A DNA stretch of 64,000 nt from Flaviramulus sp. BrNp1-15. GTDB lineage: Bacteria > Bacteroidota > Bacteroidia > Flavobacteriales > Flavobacteriaceae. Made by a program: the position numbers and the translations under genes. Every line of letters starts with the position of its first letter. Positions within the stretch are counted from its first letter, which is position 1. This document shows positions 3,738 through 24,670 of the stretch, piece by piece. The stretch is taken from assembly GCF_022259695.1 (NCBI RefSeq), contig NZ_CP092099.1, forward strand, positions 728,471-792,470, read 5' to 3'. The notes below the pieces were generated by a model that saw nothing but the letters and a program-made list of their open reading frames with translations, made no database searches and was not told the origin of the DNA.

Positions 3738-4187
3738 ATGTCTGGAACTTTAAATAAAGTAATGCTAATAGGGTATTTAGGAGATGAAATAAAAATGCAT
3801 TATTTTGAAGGTGGAGGATGCATTGGTAGATTCCCTTTAGCTACTAATGAGACTTACACGAATAAGCAAACTAATGAACGTGTTACAAATACAGAGTGGC
3901 ACAATATTGTAGTTAGAAATAAGGCTGCTGAAATTTGCGAGAAGTATTTAAGTAAAGGCGATAAAGTATATATTGAAGGTAGATTGAAAACCAGAAAATG
4001 GCAAGACGACAAAGGAAATGACAGGTATTCTACCGAAATTCAATGTACAGATTTCACATTCCTTTCCACTAAAAAGGAAAGTGAAAATAATGCGTCATCA
4101 AATAATCCAACGGCACAAAACCCAATAGTTACTCAGCAACCAAGTAATGAGCCTATAGAAAGTGATAATGATGATCTTCCTTTTTAA
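3738..4187 (+). CDS. ssb: single-stranded DNA-binding protein
   Basis: Tetrameric OB-fold protein that coats single-stranded DNA in replication, repair and recombination. The ATG at 3738 gives 149 residues beginning MSGTLNKVMLIGYLGDE; a TTG 24 nt upstream lies inside the promoter box and is rejected. The OB fold spans about 1-110 (TEWHNIVV, KGDKVYIEGRLKTRKW). A polar, Asn/Gln-rich linker follows and the protein ends in the canonical acidic partner-binding tip DNDDLPF. Followed 21 nt later by gldE. The DUF3127 protein at 22684 ends in almost the same tip. Confidence 0.95.
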   Translation: MSGTLNKVMLIGYLGDEIKMHYFEGGGCIGRFPLATNETYTNKQTNERVTNTEWHNIVVRNKAAEICEKYLSKGDKVYIEGRLKTRKWQDDKGNDRYSTEIQCTDFTFLSTKKESENNASSNNPTAQNPIVTQQPSNEPIESDNDDLPF

Positions 4188-20496: not shown

Positions 20497-21654
20497 TTAA
20501 TTAGCTCGTTTTAAACTTATTTGTATGGTACTACCTTTACCTTTTTCAGATTGTGCAACTTTTATTTTGCCATCATGAAAATCTTCAATAATACGTTTTG
20601 TCAGAGATAATCCTAATCCCCAACCACGTTTTTTTGTTGTAAAACCAGGTTCAAAAATTTTATTAAAATCTTTTTTAGCTATTCCTTTACCAGTATCAGT
20701 AACACTAACTTTTACATTGTTTTCTAGTTGAGAAATTTCAATAGTTAATTTGCCTCTGCCTTTCATAGCATCAATGGCATTTTTTACTAAATTTTCTATA
20801 GTCCAGCTGTAGAGTTGTTTGTTTAAGTTTACAGGAATTTCGCCTTCGGGGGTTTTAATTTCAAAGTCAATAAGTTTTGAAGAACGTGCTTTTAAATAAT
20901 CATATGAATTTAAGGTTTCTTCAATAATATCTACAGTTTCTAAAGTTGGAACGGACCCAATTTTACTAAAACGTTCAGTAATAGTTTGCAGTCTATCAAT
21001 GTCTTTTTCAATTTCGGTGATATAATCTGGATTTAGATTTTCACTTTTTAGTATTTCTGTCCATCCAATAAGAGAAGATAATGGTGTGCCAATTTGATGT
21101 GCAGTTTCCTTTGCCATACCAGACCACAACTTGTTTTGGGTTGCATTTTTATTACTTCGGTAAAAGAAATAAATAACTGCACCAAATAGGAAAATAATAA
21201 GAAACAATGCTAACGGATAGTACTTTAATTTGTTTAATAATGGTGAATTTCCGTAGTAAATGGTGTTTACAATTTTACCATCAAGTTTTACTTGTATGGG
21301 CGTATTTTCTTTTTCAAATTTTATAATTAGTTTTTTTATATAAGTAGAATCGCTAACCTTGGTTTCATCAATATTATTATAACTATCAAGTTCTCCGTTA
21401 TTATTAATAAGAATCATTGGAGTGGTTGTGTTACTTGTAATTACTTTTAATGGTAAGTTTCCTAAATCAACATTAAGGTTATCAGTTTTTAATAAATCAG
21501 TCTGAGCAAACGACCAATTTTCCATTTTGGTGCGTTCCTCTTCCTTAAAATGCTGAAAAAACTCGTAAGTTTTCCATAAAATAAGCAACACTATAGCAAA
21601 AGAAGCTATTATAATAATCCAACGAAATGCATTGCTATGTTTTGTAAAAATCAT
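20497..21654 (-). CDS. membrane sensor histidine kinase
   Basis: Two-component kinase of 385 residues from the ATG at 21654 (a TTG two codons upstream is possible). Membrane helices at about 10-30 and 145-165 enclose a sensor domain of about 110 residues. The H box ETAHQIGTPLSSLIGW (His about 186) is followed by N, G1 and G2 boxes: ENLVKNAIDAM, VTDTGKGIAKKDF, FTTKKRGWGLGLSLTKRI. There is no HAMP domain. No response regulator is adjacent; the partner gene here is the zinc-ribbon protein downstream. The signal is unknown. Confidence 0.92.
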   Translation of the reverse strand: MIFTKHSNAFRWIIIIASFAIVLLILWKTYEFFQHFKEEERTKMENWSFAQTDLLKTDNLNVDLGNLPLKVITSNTTTPMILINNNGELDSYNNIDETKVSDSTYIKKLIIKFEKENTPIQVKLDGKIVNTIYYGNSPLLNKLKYYPLALFLIIFLFGAVIYFFYRSNKNATQNKLWSGMAKETAHQIGTPLSSLIGWTEILKSENLNPDYITEIEKDIDRLQTITERFSKIGSVPTLETVDIIEETLNSYDYLKARSSKLIDFEIKTPEGEIPVNLNKQLYSWTIENLVKNAIDAMKGRGKLTIEISQLENNVKVSVTDTGKGIAKKDFNKIFEPGFTTKKRGWGLGLSLTKRIIEDFHDGKIKVAQSEKGKGSTIQISLKRAN

Positions 21655-21750
21655 TAACAATAAAAATTTGATTTGTAATATAATGCAAATCTGTTAATAT
21701 TATTGCGCAAGTTGTTAGTAAATCGATTTTTAGTTGAAAGAGAGAATAGT

Positions 21751-21758
21751 TACATTTG
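21751..21758 (+). promoter_or_regulatory. promoter -7 box for the flavin reductase gene
   Basis: TACATTTG, 18 nt before the ATG at 21777. It overlaps the TTG of a longer frame, so that start is rejected. Confidence 0.6.
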
Positions 21759-21776
21759 TTGAAATTAAAAAGTTTA

Positions 21777-22646
21777 ATGCCGTCAATAGATCCAAAAACA
21801 TTATCAACCAGTAAATTACATAGTTATTTGTTGAGTGCTGTTGCACCTAGACCAATAGCTTTTGCTAGTACAGTTGATGCAGAAGGAAACCCAAATTTGT
21901 CGCCATATAGCTTTTTTAATTTGTTTAGCGCTAATCCGCCAATTTTAATTTTTTCACCAGCAAGACGTGTTAGGGATAATACGGTTAAGCATACATTACA
22001 GAATGTTGAAGCAACAAAAGAAGTAGTGATTAACGTGGTGAGTTATGATATGGTTCATCAAATGTCGTTAAGTAGTACAGAATATCCTGAAGGTGTAAAT
22101 GAGTTTGAAAAATCGGGATTAACGATGCTAAAATCAGATATTGTAAAACCGTTTAGAGTTGCAGAAGCGCCAGTACAATTTGAATGTAAAGTAAACGATA
22201 TTATTAAGTTAGGAACAGAAGGAGGCGCTGGAAATTTAGTTATTTGTGAAATTGTAAAATTTCATATTGATGATGACGTTATAGATGAAGATGGCTCAAT
22301 AAATCAAAAAAAATTAGATTTGGTTGCTAGAGCAGGAGCTAGTTATTACAGTCGTGCTAGAAAAGGTTTTTTTGAAATACCTAAACCATTAACTAGTTTA
22401 GGAATAGGTGTAGATAGTTTTCCCGACTATATAAAAAATAGCATGGTTTTAACAGGAAACGATTTAGGTATGCTGGCCAATATTGAAAAACTGCCAACCA
22501 CAAAAAGTGTTGCAAGTTTTGTTGAAGATTTAAGTAAGCGTTACCCTAATATTAAAACAGCAACACATAGAGAAAAGCATAAATTAGCACGTAATTATTT
22601 AAGTTTTGGAGATGTTGAAAGCGCTTGGAAAATATTATTATCGTAA
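21777..22646 (+). CDS. flavin reductase family protein (FMN-binding split barrel)
   Basis: FMN-dependent oxidoreductase-like protein of 289 residues from the ATG at 21777. The split-barrel core is at about 10-190: APRPIAFASTVDAEGNPNLSPYSFFN is the flavin-binding signature (written here in two parts: APRPIAFASTVDAEG and NPNLSPYSFFN), followed by LVICEIVKFHIDDDV. The C-terminal 90 residues are helical and family-specific. The physiological substrate is unknown; NADH:flavin reductases and pyridoxamine-phosphate-oxidase-like enzymes share the fold. The following DUF3127 gene starts 38 nt downstream on the same strand. Confidence 0.85.
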   Translation: MPSIDPKTLSTSKLHSYLLSAVAPRPIAFASTVDAEGNPNLSPYSFFNLFSANPPILIFSPARRVRDNTVKHTLQNVEATKEVVINVVSYDMVHQMSLSSTEYPEGVNEFEKSGLTMLKSDIVKPFRVAEAPVQFECKVNDIIKLGTEGGAGNLVICEIVKFHIDDDVIDEDGSINQKKLDLVARAGASYYSRARKGFFEIPKPLTSLGIGVDSFPDYIKNSMVLTGNDLGMLANIEKLPTTKSVASFVEDLSKRYPNIKTATHREKHKLARNYLSFGDVESAWKILLS

Positions 22647-22683
22647 ATAAATAAGAGATTAATAAAGAATAAATATAGATTAA

Positions 22684-23061
22684 ATGGAAGTTCAAGGAAG
22701 AATAAAAATGGTAGGAGAAACTCAAACTTTTGGAAGTAATGGGTTTAGAAAAAGAGAAATTGTTGTAACTACAGAAGAGCAATATCCTCAACACATTATG
22801 GTGGAATTTGTTCAAGATAAAACAGATTTGCTTAATAACTATCAAGTAGGGCAACAAGTAAAGATTAATATCAATCTAAGAGGTAGAGAGTGGGTTAACC
22901 CTCAAGGTGAAACTAAATATTTTAACTCTATTCAAGGTTGGAGAATTGAAGCACTACAAAGTGAAGCAAGTGGAGAAAATTTACCACCTGTGCCACCAGC
23001 AGATGCTTTTGAACCAGCAGGAGATTTAAATGAAGATGATCACGACGATTTACCTTTTTAA
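22684..23061 (+). CDS. DUF3127 protein with SSB-type C-terminal tail
   Basis: A 125-residue protein. Residues 1-98 form the DUF3127 domain (MEVQGRIKMVGETQTFG, GFRKREIVVTTEEQYPQ, VNINLRG-like strand, REWVNPQGETKYFNSIQGW), which has the strand pattern of an OB fold. Residues 99-117 are a Pro/Ala/Glu linker, and the protein ends DDHDDLPF. This tail is essentially the one on SSB of this genome (DNDDLPF), the docking tip for repair and replication proteins. Binding of single-stranded DNA or RNA is therefore plausible but unproven. A repeat and a terminator follow. Confidence 0.85.
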   Translation: MEVQGRIKMVGETQTFGSNGFRKREIVVTTEEQYPQHIMVEFVQDKTDLLNNYQVGQQVKININLRGREWVNPQGETKYFNSIQGWRIEALQSEASGENLPPVPPADAFEPAGDLNEDDHDDLPF

Positions 23062-23076
23062 ATAAAAAAATGATAT

Positions 23077-23100
23077 TACCCTGAGCGCAATCGAAGGGTA
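23077..23100 (+). repeat. short palindromic intergenic repeat (CCTGAGCGCAATCGAAGG type)
   Basis: TACCCT ... AGGGTA arms around GAGCGCAATCGA. Lies in the short gap before aat; a degraded relative lies at 12738-12762. Confidence 0.6.
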
Positions 23101-23104
23101 CTAT

Positions 23105-23139
23105 AAAACCTTTCAGTATATGTTATTGAAAGGTTTTTT
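23105..23139 (+). terminator. terminator after the DUF3127 gene
   Basis: AAAACCTTTCA ... TGAAAGGTTTTTT, 11-bp stem, U-run; ends only 12 nt before the aat start codon. Confidence 0.8.
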
Positions 23140-23150
23140 ACTTTTATATT

Positions 23151-23777
23151 ATGCATTACTTAACAGATAAATTATGGTTTCCTAATGTGAATGAAGCCAC
23201 TACCGATGGGTTATTAGCTATTGGTGGCGATTTATCTGTAGAGCGGTTGTTACTTGCCTATAAATCTGGTATTTTTCCGTGGTTTGATAATGAAGAACCT
23301 ATTTTATGGTGGTCTCCAGATCCGCGTTTTGTACTATTTCCTGAGAAACTGAAAGTTTCAAAAAGCATGAAACAATTTTTAAGAAATAAGGATTACACTG
23401 TTACTATAAATAAAGATTTTAGAGCAATAATTACAGAATGTTCAAAAGCGAAAAGACAAGGGCAAGCAGGAACTTGGATTACCAAAAATATGATTGAAGC
23501 TTATGTAAAACTTCATAAATTAGGCTATGTAAAATCTGTTGAAGTCTGGAAAGACAGCAAATTGGTAGCCGGACTTTATGGTGTTGATTTGGGCAATGGC
23601 GTGTTTTGTGGAGAAAGTATGTTTACTAAAGAAAGTAACGCAAGTAAAGTAGGATTTATAACCTTTATACAGAATACTAATTATAAACTTATAGATTGTC
23701 AAGTATATACTAACCATCTTGAAAGTTTAGGAGCCGAGGAAATTCCTAGAGATCTATTTTTGAATTACTTGAAATAA
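23151..23777 (+). CDS. aat: leucyl/phenylalanyl-tRNA--protein transferase
   Basis: Adds Leu or Phe to proteins with N-terminal Lys or Arg, marking them for ClpS/ClpAP. The 208 residues contain FPNVNEATTDGLLAIGGDLS, YKSGIFPWFDNEEPILWWSPDPR (split motif, about 42-64), and the C-terminal GVFCGESMFTKESNASKVGF with the conserved Glu-Ser-Met-Phe. Length normal. Closely follows a terminator, so its promoter must overlap that hairpin (TACTTTTA at 23139-23146 is a near match). Confidence 0.95.
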   Translation: MHYLTDKLWFPNVNEATTDGLLAIGGDLSVERLLLAYKSGIFPWFDNEEPILWWSPDPRFVLFPEKLKVSKSMKQFLRNKDYTVTINKDFRAIITECSKAKRQGQAGTWITKNMIEAYVKLHKLGYVKSVEVWKDSKLVAGLYGVDLGNGVFCGESMFTKESNASKVGFITFIQNTNYKLIDCQVYTNHLESLGAEEIPRDLFLNYLK

Positions 23778-23866
23778 TTTGATTTATTAATACAAAAACA
23801 ATAAATTCGTTATATAACCAACGCATTAATTGTTAGGGTTTTAATATTGAATTAGTATTAATTTCA

Positions 23867-24670
23867 ATGAAAAATCAATCTGTTAGTATATCTCAAATTA
23901 TAAAGGAAACTACAAAAAAGCCTGATTCCGATACTTATGCTGTTTGCTGGATAAAAGCTAAAGTTAACAGGATTAAAATAAATGGTACTACATATAAAAA
24001 TGTTTCCAACTCCATATTTTTTATTGATCCAAAGTTCAATTGGAAAATTTTTAAAAAAAATGCTAAAACATCTTCAGGTTATATTTTGTACTTAACACAA
24101 GAAGTTTTAAATAACCCTATTTTAAGTAATCTTCACATAAATAAAGTGCGATTATTTAACTCTGGAGAAACACCTTTATTTAAATTAAGTCCAGGAATAG
24201 AAAAAAGAACACAAGCTATATTAGAAATGATTGATGAACTTTTAGGTTCGCATCTTAATCATAAAGAAGAGGCAATTTTATCATTACTAAATACTTTTTT
24301 TGTGTATTGCGATGGACAGTGCAACATAAAATCTATTGCATCAAATAATAATTCAAGAACAAATATTGTTTATAATTTTAAAAAGTTGGTAGACAAACAT
24401 GTTATTGAGTATCATAATGTCTCTCATTATGCAAAACTTTTAAATATTACCCCAAAATATTTAAATGAATGTGTTAATGAAGTTCTGTCTACATCTTCAA
24501 AAAACATTATCGTTGAACAGTTACTGATGAGGTCCCGACACCGATTAAAATTTTCAAGTAAGAGTATAAAAGAAATCAGTTTTGAATTAGGTTTCTCTAC
24601 ACCAGATTATTTCAGTTATTTTTTTAAAACTCATACAGGTTATAAACCCTCAGCACTACGAAAAGTGTAA
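23867..24670 (+). CDS. AraC family transcriptional regulator
   Basis: Likely activator of 267 residues. The C-terminal 100 residues hold two helix-turn-helix motifs: YAKLLNITPKYLNECVNEVL and IKEISFELGFSTPDYFSYFFKTHTGYKPSALRK, the latter a classical AraC signature (shown only in part here: ELGFSTPDYFSYFF). The N-terminal part (1-160) resembles a cupin-like sensing domain but I see no clear ligand motif. The next gene, a secreted cupin, is 80 nt downstream on the same strand and is the obvious candidate target. Confidence 0.85.
   Translation: MKNQSVSISQIIKETTKKPDSDTYAVCWIKAKVNRIKINGTTYKNVSNSIFFIDPKFNWKIFKKNAKTSSGYILYLTQEVLNNPILSNLHINKVRLFNSGETPLFKLSPGIEKRTQAILEMIDELLGSHLNHKEEAILSLLNTFFVYCDGQCNIKSIASNNNSRTNIVYNFKKLVDKHVIEYHNVSHYAKLLNITPKYLNECVNEVLSTSSKNIIVEQLLMRSRHRLKFSSKSIKEISFELGFSTPDYFSYFFKTHTGYKPSALRKV

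Follow-up and report, generated by a model that had tools for sequence, protein, structure and literature searches.

The window, i.e., the whole stretch of 64,000 nucleotides that was analysed, carries a gene for a 125-aa protein of the DUF3127 family (Table 1), which is present once in the single-contig genome of 3.58 Mb. The protein is matched by PF11325 (DUF3127) at residues 2-89, with E 1.9e-31 and 108.5 bits against the curated cut-off of 27. The profile phrog_4932 ("single strand DNA binding protein") covers residues 1-125 with its positions 1-117 of 117 (E 2e-47), the tail included. The protein ends in LNEDDHDDLPF, followed by the stop codon. Two canonical genes for the single-stranded DNA-binding protein (SSB) are found in the same genome; the one in the window is tipped, and the other, a copy of 116 aa, has no PF tip.

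Table 1. Coordinates of the features discussed, given as positions in the window unless another sequence is named
Feature	Position	Strand	Basis
DUF3127 gene, second SSB-like protein, 125 aa	22684..23061	+	PF11325 and phrog_4932 matches
OB-fold domain (predicted), residues 1-92	22684..22959	+	AlphaFold2, Foldseek, VIA-align, SSB profile homology
Disordered Pro/Ala/Glu-rich linker (predicted), residues 93-117	22960..23034	+	low pLDDT, alignment variability
SSB-Ct-type acidic tip DDHDDLPF, residues 118-125	23035..23058	+	sequence, conservation
Terminator-like hairpin, then T-rich sequence, between the DUF3127 gene and aat	23105..23137	+	consensus scan only
Canonical SSB of the same genome, end ESDNDDLPF (comparison)	3738..4187	+	inside the window
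Second canonical SSB of the same genome, 116 aa, without tip	C1:178948-179253 (L002)		
Abi_C protein	G000:C1 2887758-2888591 (L008:682-1515)		outside the window

A consensus scan gave three terminator-like sites at 21600-23900, compared with 0.8 on average in shuffled sequences. Given the hairpin that precedes aat, the DUF3127 gene may be cotranscribed with that of the flavin reductase, and aat would be separate. The gene order flavin reductase, DUF3127, aat was considered as a clue to the function and rejected: among 116 DUF3127 loci, a flavin reductase is near the gene in 20 and aat in 18, so that this minority arrangement carries little information on function. The identity of the protein as part of a defence system was also rejected, since neither PADLOC nor NCBIfam has a match to it at E<=0.01.

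The fold was predicted by AlphaFold2 from an alignment of 59 DUF3127 sequences with less than 75% identity. The block-mean pLDDT is 92-97 for residues 1-90, whereas beyond residue 90 it is 57-69 (57-63 at residues 91-120); the predicted order of the secondary structure elements is E-E-E-E-H-E-E, that of an OB fold of the SSB/PriB type. The first-pass annotation had proposed an N-terminal domain with an OB-like strand pattern, followed by a disordered Pro/Ala linker as in SSB, and both proposals are upheld by this contrast in pLDDT. Foldseek found 141 matches in the PDB at E<=0.001, and the 50 matches listed are all SSB, the top one listed having E 3.6e-7. A fold search against predicted viral proteins gave a phage DUF3127 protein first (E 1.6e-10), followed by several named SSB.

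In the comparison by VIA-align, the SSB of Salinibacter has Z 12.0 (rmsd 2.7 over 90 residues) and PriB (1woc) has Z 11.6, tied with SSB structures; because of this tie, the predicted fold alone cannot separate SSB from PriB. It is conceivable that DUF3127 is a PriB-like part of replication restart, which acts in the primosome with PriA, and that its likeness to SSB is incidental. Apart from the tie, this would agree with PriB-SSBc, an artificial PriB with the SSB tail, which binds ssDNA better and stimulates PriA (PMC8509808, in the part available). The family profile (tail included) speaks against this, however: at E<=1 it has 23 matches in the PDB sequences, each of which carries the name SSB and none PriB, the best E being 1.1e-8. 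In addition, PriB has no SSB tail according to the available part of the same paper, whereas DUF3127 has one, and the setting of the phage copies (see below) is one of recombination. A PriB-like role is, in our opinion, unlikely.

The relation to SSB is seen with the tail cut off as well: the OB-only profiles of DUF3127 and SSB are aligned over 53 columns with the probability 89.7 and E 1.8e-6, values from one template that are uncalibrated against a library. A PDB search with the single sequence gave two weak matches only, both SSB, with E 0.88 and 1.4. The Pfam SSB model scores the window's protein at 14.2 bits, below its cut-off of 26, and matches none of the 59 aligned members at E<=0.01. 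In E. coli SSB, the aromatics that stack with ssDNA are W40, W54, F60 and W88. An aromatic stands at the site like W88 (the "RKW" Trp of SSB) in 57 of the 59 members, and positions 79 and 86 are aromatic in all 59; the DUF3127 consensus has no counterpart of the W54-like "TEWH" Trp. Over the first 90 residues the net charge averages about zero, so that strong ssDNA binding is not obvious.

The end of the protein, DDHDDLPF, had been likened in the first-pass annotation to the tip of the SSB in the same genome, and the last five residues, DDLPF, are indeed identical in the two. In the phylum draw (198 genomes), the domain is present in 115 genomes at 117 matched places, all of which were fetched. 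As many as 112 of the 117 ORF pieces end in PF; of the remaining five, one comes from a broken gene (G077), of which it is a half, and four are the copies of genomes that all belong to family f11, with the ends DDD, DDE or DEA. Control frames from the same loci have no PF end in 395 frames of at least 150 aa, in 806 frames of at least 100 aa or, among these 806, in the 464 with a relative in another locus; these are stop-to-stop frames and hence genes only in part, those with relatives being the likelier genes. The pattern D-(L/F)-P-F-stop occurs at 8 sites in the 3.58 Mb genome vs 5 for the reversed control pattern, and three of the 8 sites terminate frames of at least 100 aa, namely, those of SSB, the DUF3127 protein and an Abi_C protein. 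A chance origin of the tail is rejected by the few frames that the pattern terminates, the PF ends and the controls.

The positions were counted over 115 full copies, the two pieces from G077 being dropped. The last two residues are P and F in 111 copies; position -4 is D or E in 105 and position -5 in 97; position -3 is C in 14 and V in 13; and positions -6 to -10 drift. In the alignment of 59 sequences only four columns are conserved at 90% or more: G56, W86, P124 and F125. The linker is variable there; over the 115 copies it is rich in P, A and S with few K or R, and residues 93-125 of the window's protein include neither K nor R. The tail is thus near-invariant among the relatives, as it should be if the earlier suggestion was sound. 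Judging from the sequences, the exact P-F end is under selection, and not the charge alone.

The charge would be what matters if the tail were autoinhibitory, i.e., if it mimicked DNA, folded back on the OB domain and tuned the binding of ssDNA, with no docking of partners. The tails are strongly acidic (a mean net charge of about -4.6 over the last 15 residues in the 59 members), the f11 copies retain acidic ends without PF, and acidic tails of other nucleic-acid proteins do act in this manner (Hfq; the available part of PMC5606850). However, a plain DNA mimic would presumably need no terminal Phe, and P and F are kept in nearly all copies while positions -6 to -10 drift, which argues for selection on the exact end. 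We find autoinhibition improbable as the main role.

The LPF end could also be mainly a degradation signal for ClpXP, which would keep the DUF3127 protein short-lived. In some strains of Streptococcus mutans the last three residues of SsbA, LPF, suffice for degradation by ClpXP; however, the ClpXP of E. coli, S. gordonii and S. sanguinis ignores LPF, and the signal is unrecognised in three S. mutans strains too (all from the available part of PMC5143411). Moreover, the S. mutans signal as described in that part consists of three residues, whereas in DUF3127 the preceding D-D is conserved as well, and C or V replaces the first residue of LPF in some copies. This reading is very unlikely in our view.

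The tip itself seems dispensable in some cases: considering family f11 without PF and two of 20 phage copies without the tail, it is not always needed.

The Abi_C protein with an SSB-type end (PF14355, E 8.2e-12) is encoded in the same genome, has 277 aa and ends in ESADWEDLPF. Two plasmid relatives were read (about 48% identity): the one from Vitreoscilla ends in EDDEVPF and the one from Pseudomonas in DESIPF. Judging from its sequence, it may be a defence protein which either mimics SSB or docks on the partners of SSB.

In the class draw, the DUF3127 domain is present in 261 of 295 genomes, and in 234 of the 253 genomes of good quality. It is encoded by a separate gene alongside at least one canonical SSB in 28 carriers among the 30 genomes checked. 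Relatives are found in 122 of 50,697 phage records, 119 of which are named after genera that we take to belong to the class Flavobacteriia.

Twenty of the 122 phage loci were picked for variety; they are partly close relatives and not 20 independent cases. The neighbour genes were taken from the annotation of the records themselves. An annealase (RecT, ERF or Sak4) is annotated within the stretch read at 11 of the 20 loci, and any of an annealase, YqaJ/RecE exonuclease, NinG, NinB or RusA at 19, the exception being FL-1. A second SSB was searched for in these 20 stretches with a home-made SSB profile, and none was found. The tip is intact in 17 of the 20 copies; P12024S ends in ADPLF, and the proteins of Freya_2 and Danklef_1 terminate immediately behind the OB domain. 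Of the 180 relatives in viral contigs of IMG/VR, the best 80 were considered, from which 8 duplicates and one cut copy were removed; 63 of the 71 distinct complete copies so obtained end in PF, and three of the other 8 have DDLPF plus one residue. Within 3 kb of the gene (the same best 80 of 180), there is a recombination gene in 37 cases, an annealase in 20 and a second SSB in none. Neighbours of this kind are expected of a phage SSB, and from this context we presume that the phage copies play such a role.

The ends of canonical SSB were read for 50 of 54 matches in 30 genomes. In all four f11 genomes the SSB retains DDLPF while DUF3127 has lost PF. The reverse is observed in Thermoflavifilum thermophilum DSM 14807 (G007, locus L246), a member of a genus of Chitinophagaceae that is included in the class draw. 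Each of five Thermoflavifilum genomes has exactly one PF00436 match, and this sole SSB has no final PF in any of them (the ends are NPEDNE, NPEDND, NPEDHT, NPEDNG and ADEEED). The DUF3127 protein was found in four of the five genomes, with the DDLPF end in all four; it was not found in the fifth, whose assembly is 89% complete. A scan of the four genomes for D-(L/F)-P-F-stop, which is blind to V, I or M before PF, gave only two plausible genes: DUF3127 (in all four) and XseB (in three). Since in Thermoflavifilum the tip is borne by DUF3127 and not by SSB, DUF3127 may take over the docking; the sequences suggest that it is able to do so.

XseB, the small subunit of exonuclease VII, has a DDLPF or EDLPF end in three of the four Thermoflavifilum genomes (L234, L235 and L242; the last, which is the sole one tested, matches PF02609 with E 2.1e-14) and presents a further SSB-type tip outside SSB.

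In several lineages, mostly Chitinophagaceae by title, the main SSB has an eroded tip (ENMAF, ENMPY, DMEY and others; L246-L325). The Thermoflavifilum SSB has 562 relatives, and among the best 80 of them a final PF is missing in 11, one of these being the query SSB itself. Nineteen genomes, i.e., the five of Thermoflavifilum and 14 others, were chosen for their eroded SSB tips, so that the counts in this set are not frequencies; several of its members are metagenome bins, where absent genes prove little. Another PF00436 paralogue ends in PF in 12 of the 19 genomes, all among the 14 others, and none does in the remaining seven (G465, G501 and the five Thermoflavifilum genomes). In six of these seven genomes without a tipped SSB, DUF3127 ends in DDLPF; it was not found in the seventh. 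The 12 genomes with a tipped paralogue include seven that also carry a tipped DUF3127 and five without a detectable DUF3127 (G486, G480, G500, G502 and G505). In the latter five, the main tip is eroded and another canonical-type SSB ends in DDLPF; they contradict the simple rule by which erosion of the SSB tip is invariably followed by a takeover by DUF3127, and DUF3127 is therefore not the sole possible substitute. All 25 DUF3127 rows of the eroded set end in PF (24 distinct, as G487 and G498 are one genome). G506 has no DUF3127 match, and its SSB tip is intact.

The identity of the last five residues in DUF3127 and the SSB of the same genome could also mean that DUF3127 mainly competes with canonical SSB or damps it, titrating the partners and not acting on ssDNA of its own. 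However, conservation extends to the OB domain as well as the tip, most of the phage copies read have kept both, and the search in Thermoflavifilum gave no tipped canonical SSB with which to compete. We give such competition a low probability. It is tempting to go further and propose that the class divides the two jobs of SSB, the coating of ssDNA and the docking of partners, between two proteins, with DUF3127 as a dedicated recruiter whose tip can replace that of SSB; this we put forward tentatively, as a possibility about which we have more doubt than confidence.

RecQ is a known partner of SSB. Six of the 21 domain-bearing genomes of genus g40 have a RecQ gene on the same strand as the DUF3127 gene and just upstream of it (L036, L045, L046, L048, L051 and L061; flanks of 1.5-2 kb were covered). 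RQC and HRDC domains are present in the one RecQ scanned (L051); the match of a helicase near L119 is distant (E 1.5e-37). This adjacency, limited to one genus, fits the reading of DUF3127 as a second SSB.

We consider it probable that DUF3127 is a second member of the SSB superfamily, which would coat ssDNA and dock the usual SSB partners; it appears so because its predicted fold and its short docking end are the same as those of the standard SSB. The earlier suggestion, a non-canonical SSB beside the usual one and with partners in common, remains the best reading; the protein would then bind ssDNA and dock these partners, and it may either assist SSB or compete with it. The short OB-fold domain would bind ssDNA, as its fold and homology suggest, and the predicted disordered linker would carry the SSB-Ct-type tip. 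RecQ, RecO, PriA, RecG, exonucleases and other usual SSB-interacting proteins would receive the tip in their Phe pocket and would thereby be delivered to ssDNA coated by DUF3127 rather than by canonical SSB. The phage copies would serve as the phage SSB beside the annealase, exonuclease and other recombination genes, and in at least one bacterial genus, where DUF3127 and not canonical SSB bears the tip, a takeover of docking would be possible.

The importance of the exact end is known for SSB itself. According to the available part of PMC10164576, partner enzymes have a pocket in which the SSB-Ct Phe is buried, the loss of the last residue of SSB in E. coli abolishes partner binding and is lethal, and the change of the penultimate Pro to Ser leads to weaker binding and sensitivity to DNA damage. 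The behaviour of PriB-SSBc, as described in the available part of its source, indicates that a tail can turn another OB protein into a recruiter.

DUF3127 and canonical SSB (PF00436/TIGR00621) have in common the OB fold, the disordered linker, the D-D-(hydrophobic)-P-F tip and related OB profiles; unlike the latter, DUF3127 scores below the Pfam and NCBIfam cut-offs, has no "TEWH" Trp, has a near-invariant W86 and is encoded by a separate gene. The 116-aa paralogue is likewise an additional SSB in the same genome; however, it passes the SSB models and has no PF tip, while DUF3127 is the reverse. The likeness to phrog_4932 extends over the full length and, in most phage copies, to the tip; this family, however, was built from phage copies, whereas Pfam and NCBIfam give chromosomal DUF3127 no functional name.

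That the phage relatives are SSB is already on record in PHROGs (phrog_4932) and in RefSeq phage records, so that the idea of a second SSB is not wholly new. The DUF3127 domain has also been noted in an SSB of a Pantoea phage (PMC8004638, the part available). Literature searches, outside which most subscription papers lie, returned only this paper, available in part, for "DUF3127", no paper for "PF11325", none for Thermoflavifilum with "single-stranded DNA-binding protein" and none on a chromosomal DUF3127 protein, its tail or the hand-over. What is new here is the conservation of the tip across the phylum draw, the recombination context in the phages (19 of 20 loci) and the natural hand-over.

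If the proposed role is true, it provides a function for a DUF present in 261 of 295 class genomes, and it would tell which protein serves some phages as SSB next to their recombination genes. Studies of the SSB tip in these bacteria, including those of inhibitors, would then need to count two tip-bearing proteins, not one. Thermoflavifilum makes the question of whether the hub tip must sit on SSB directly testable; if the takeover is true, the hub of genome maintenance in this genus would have moved to a different protein.
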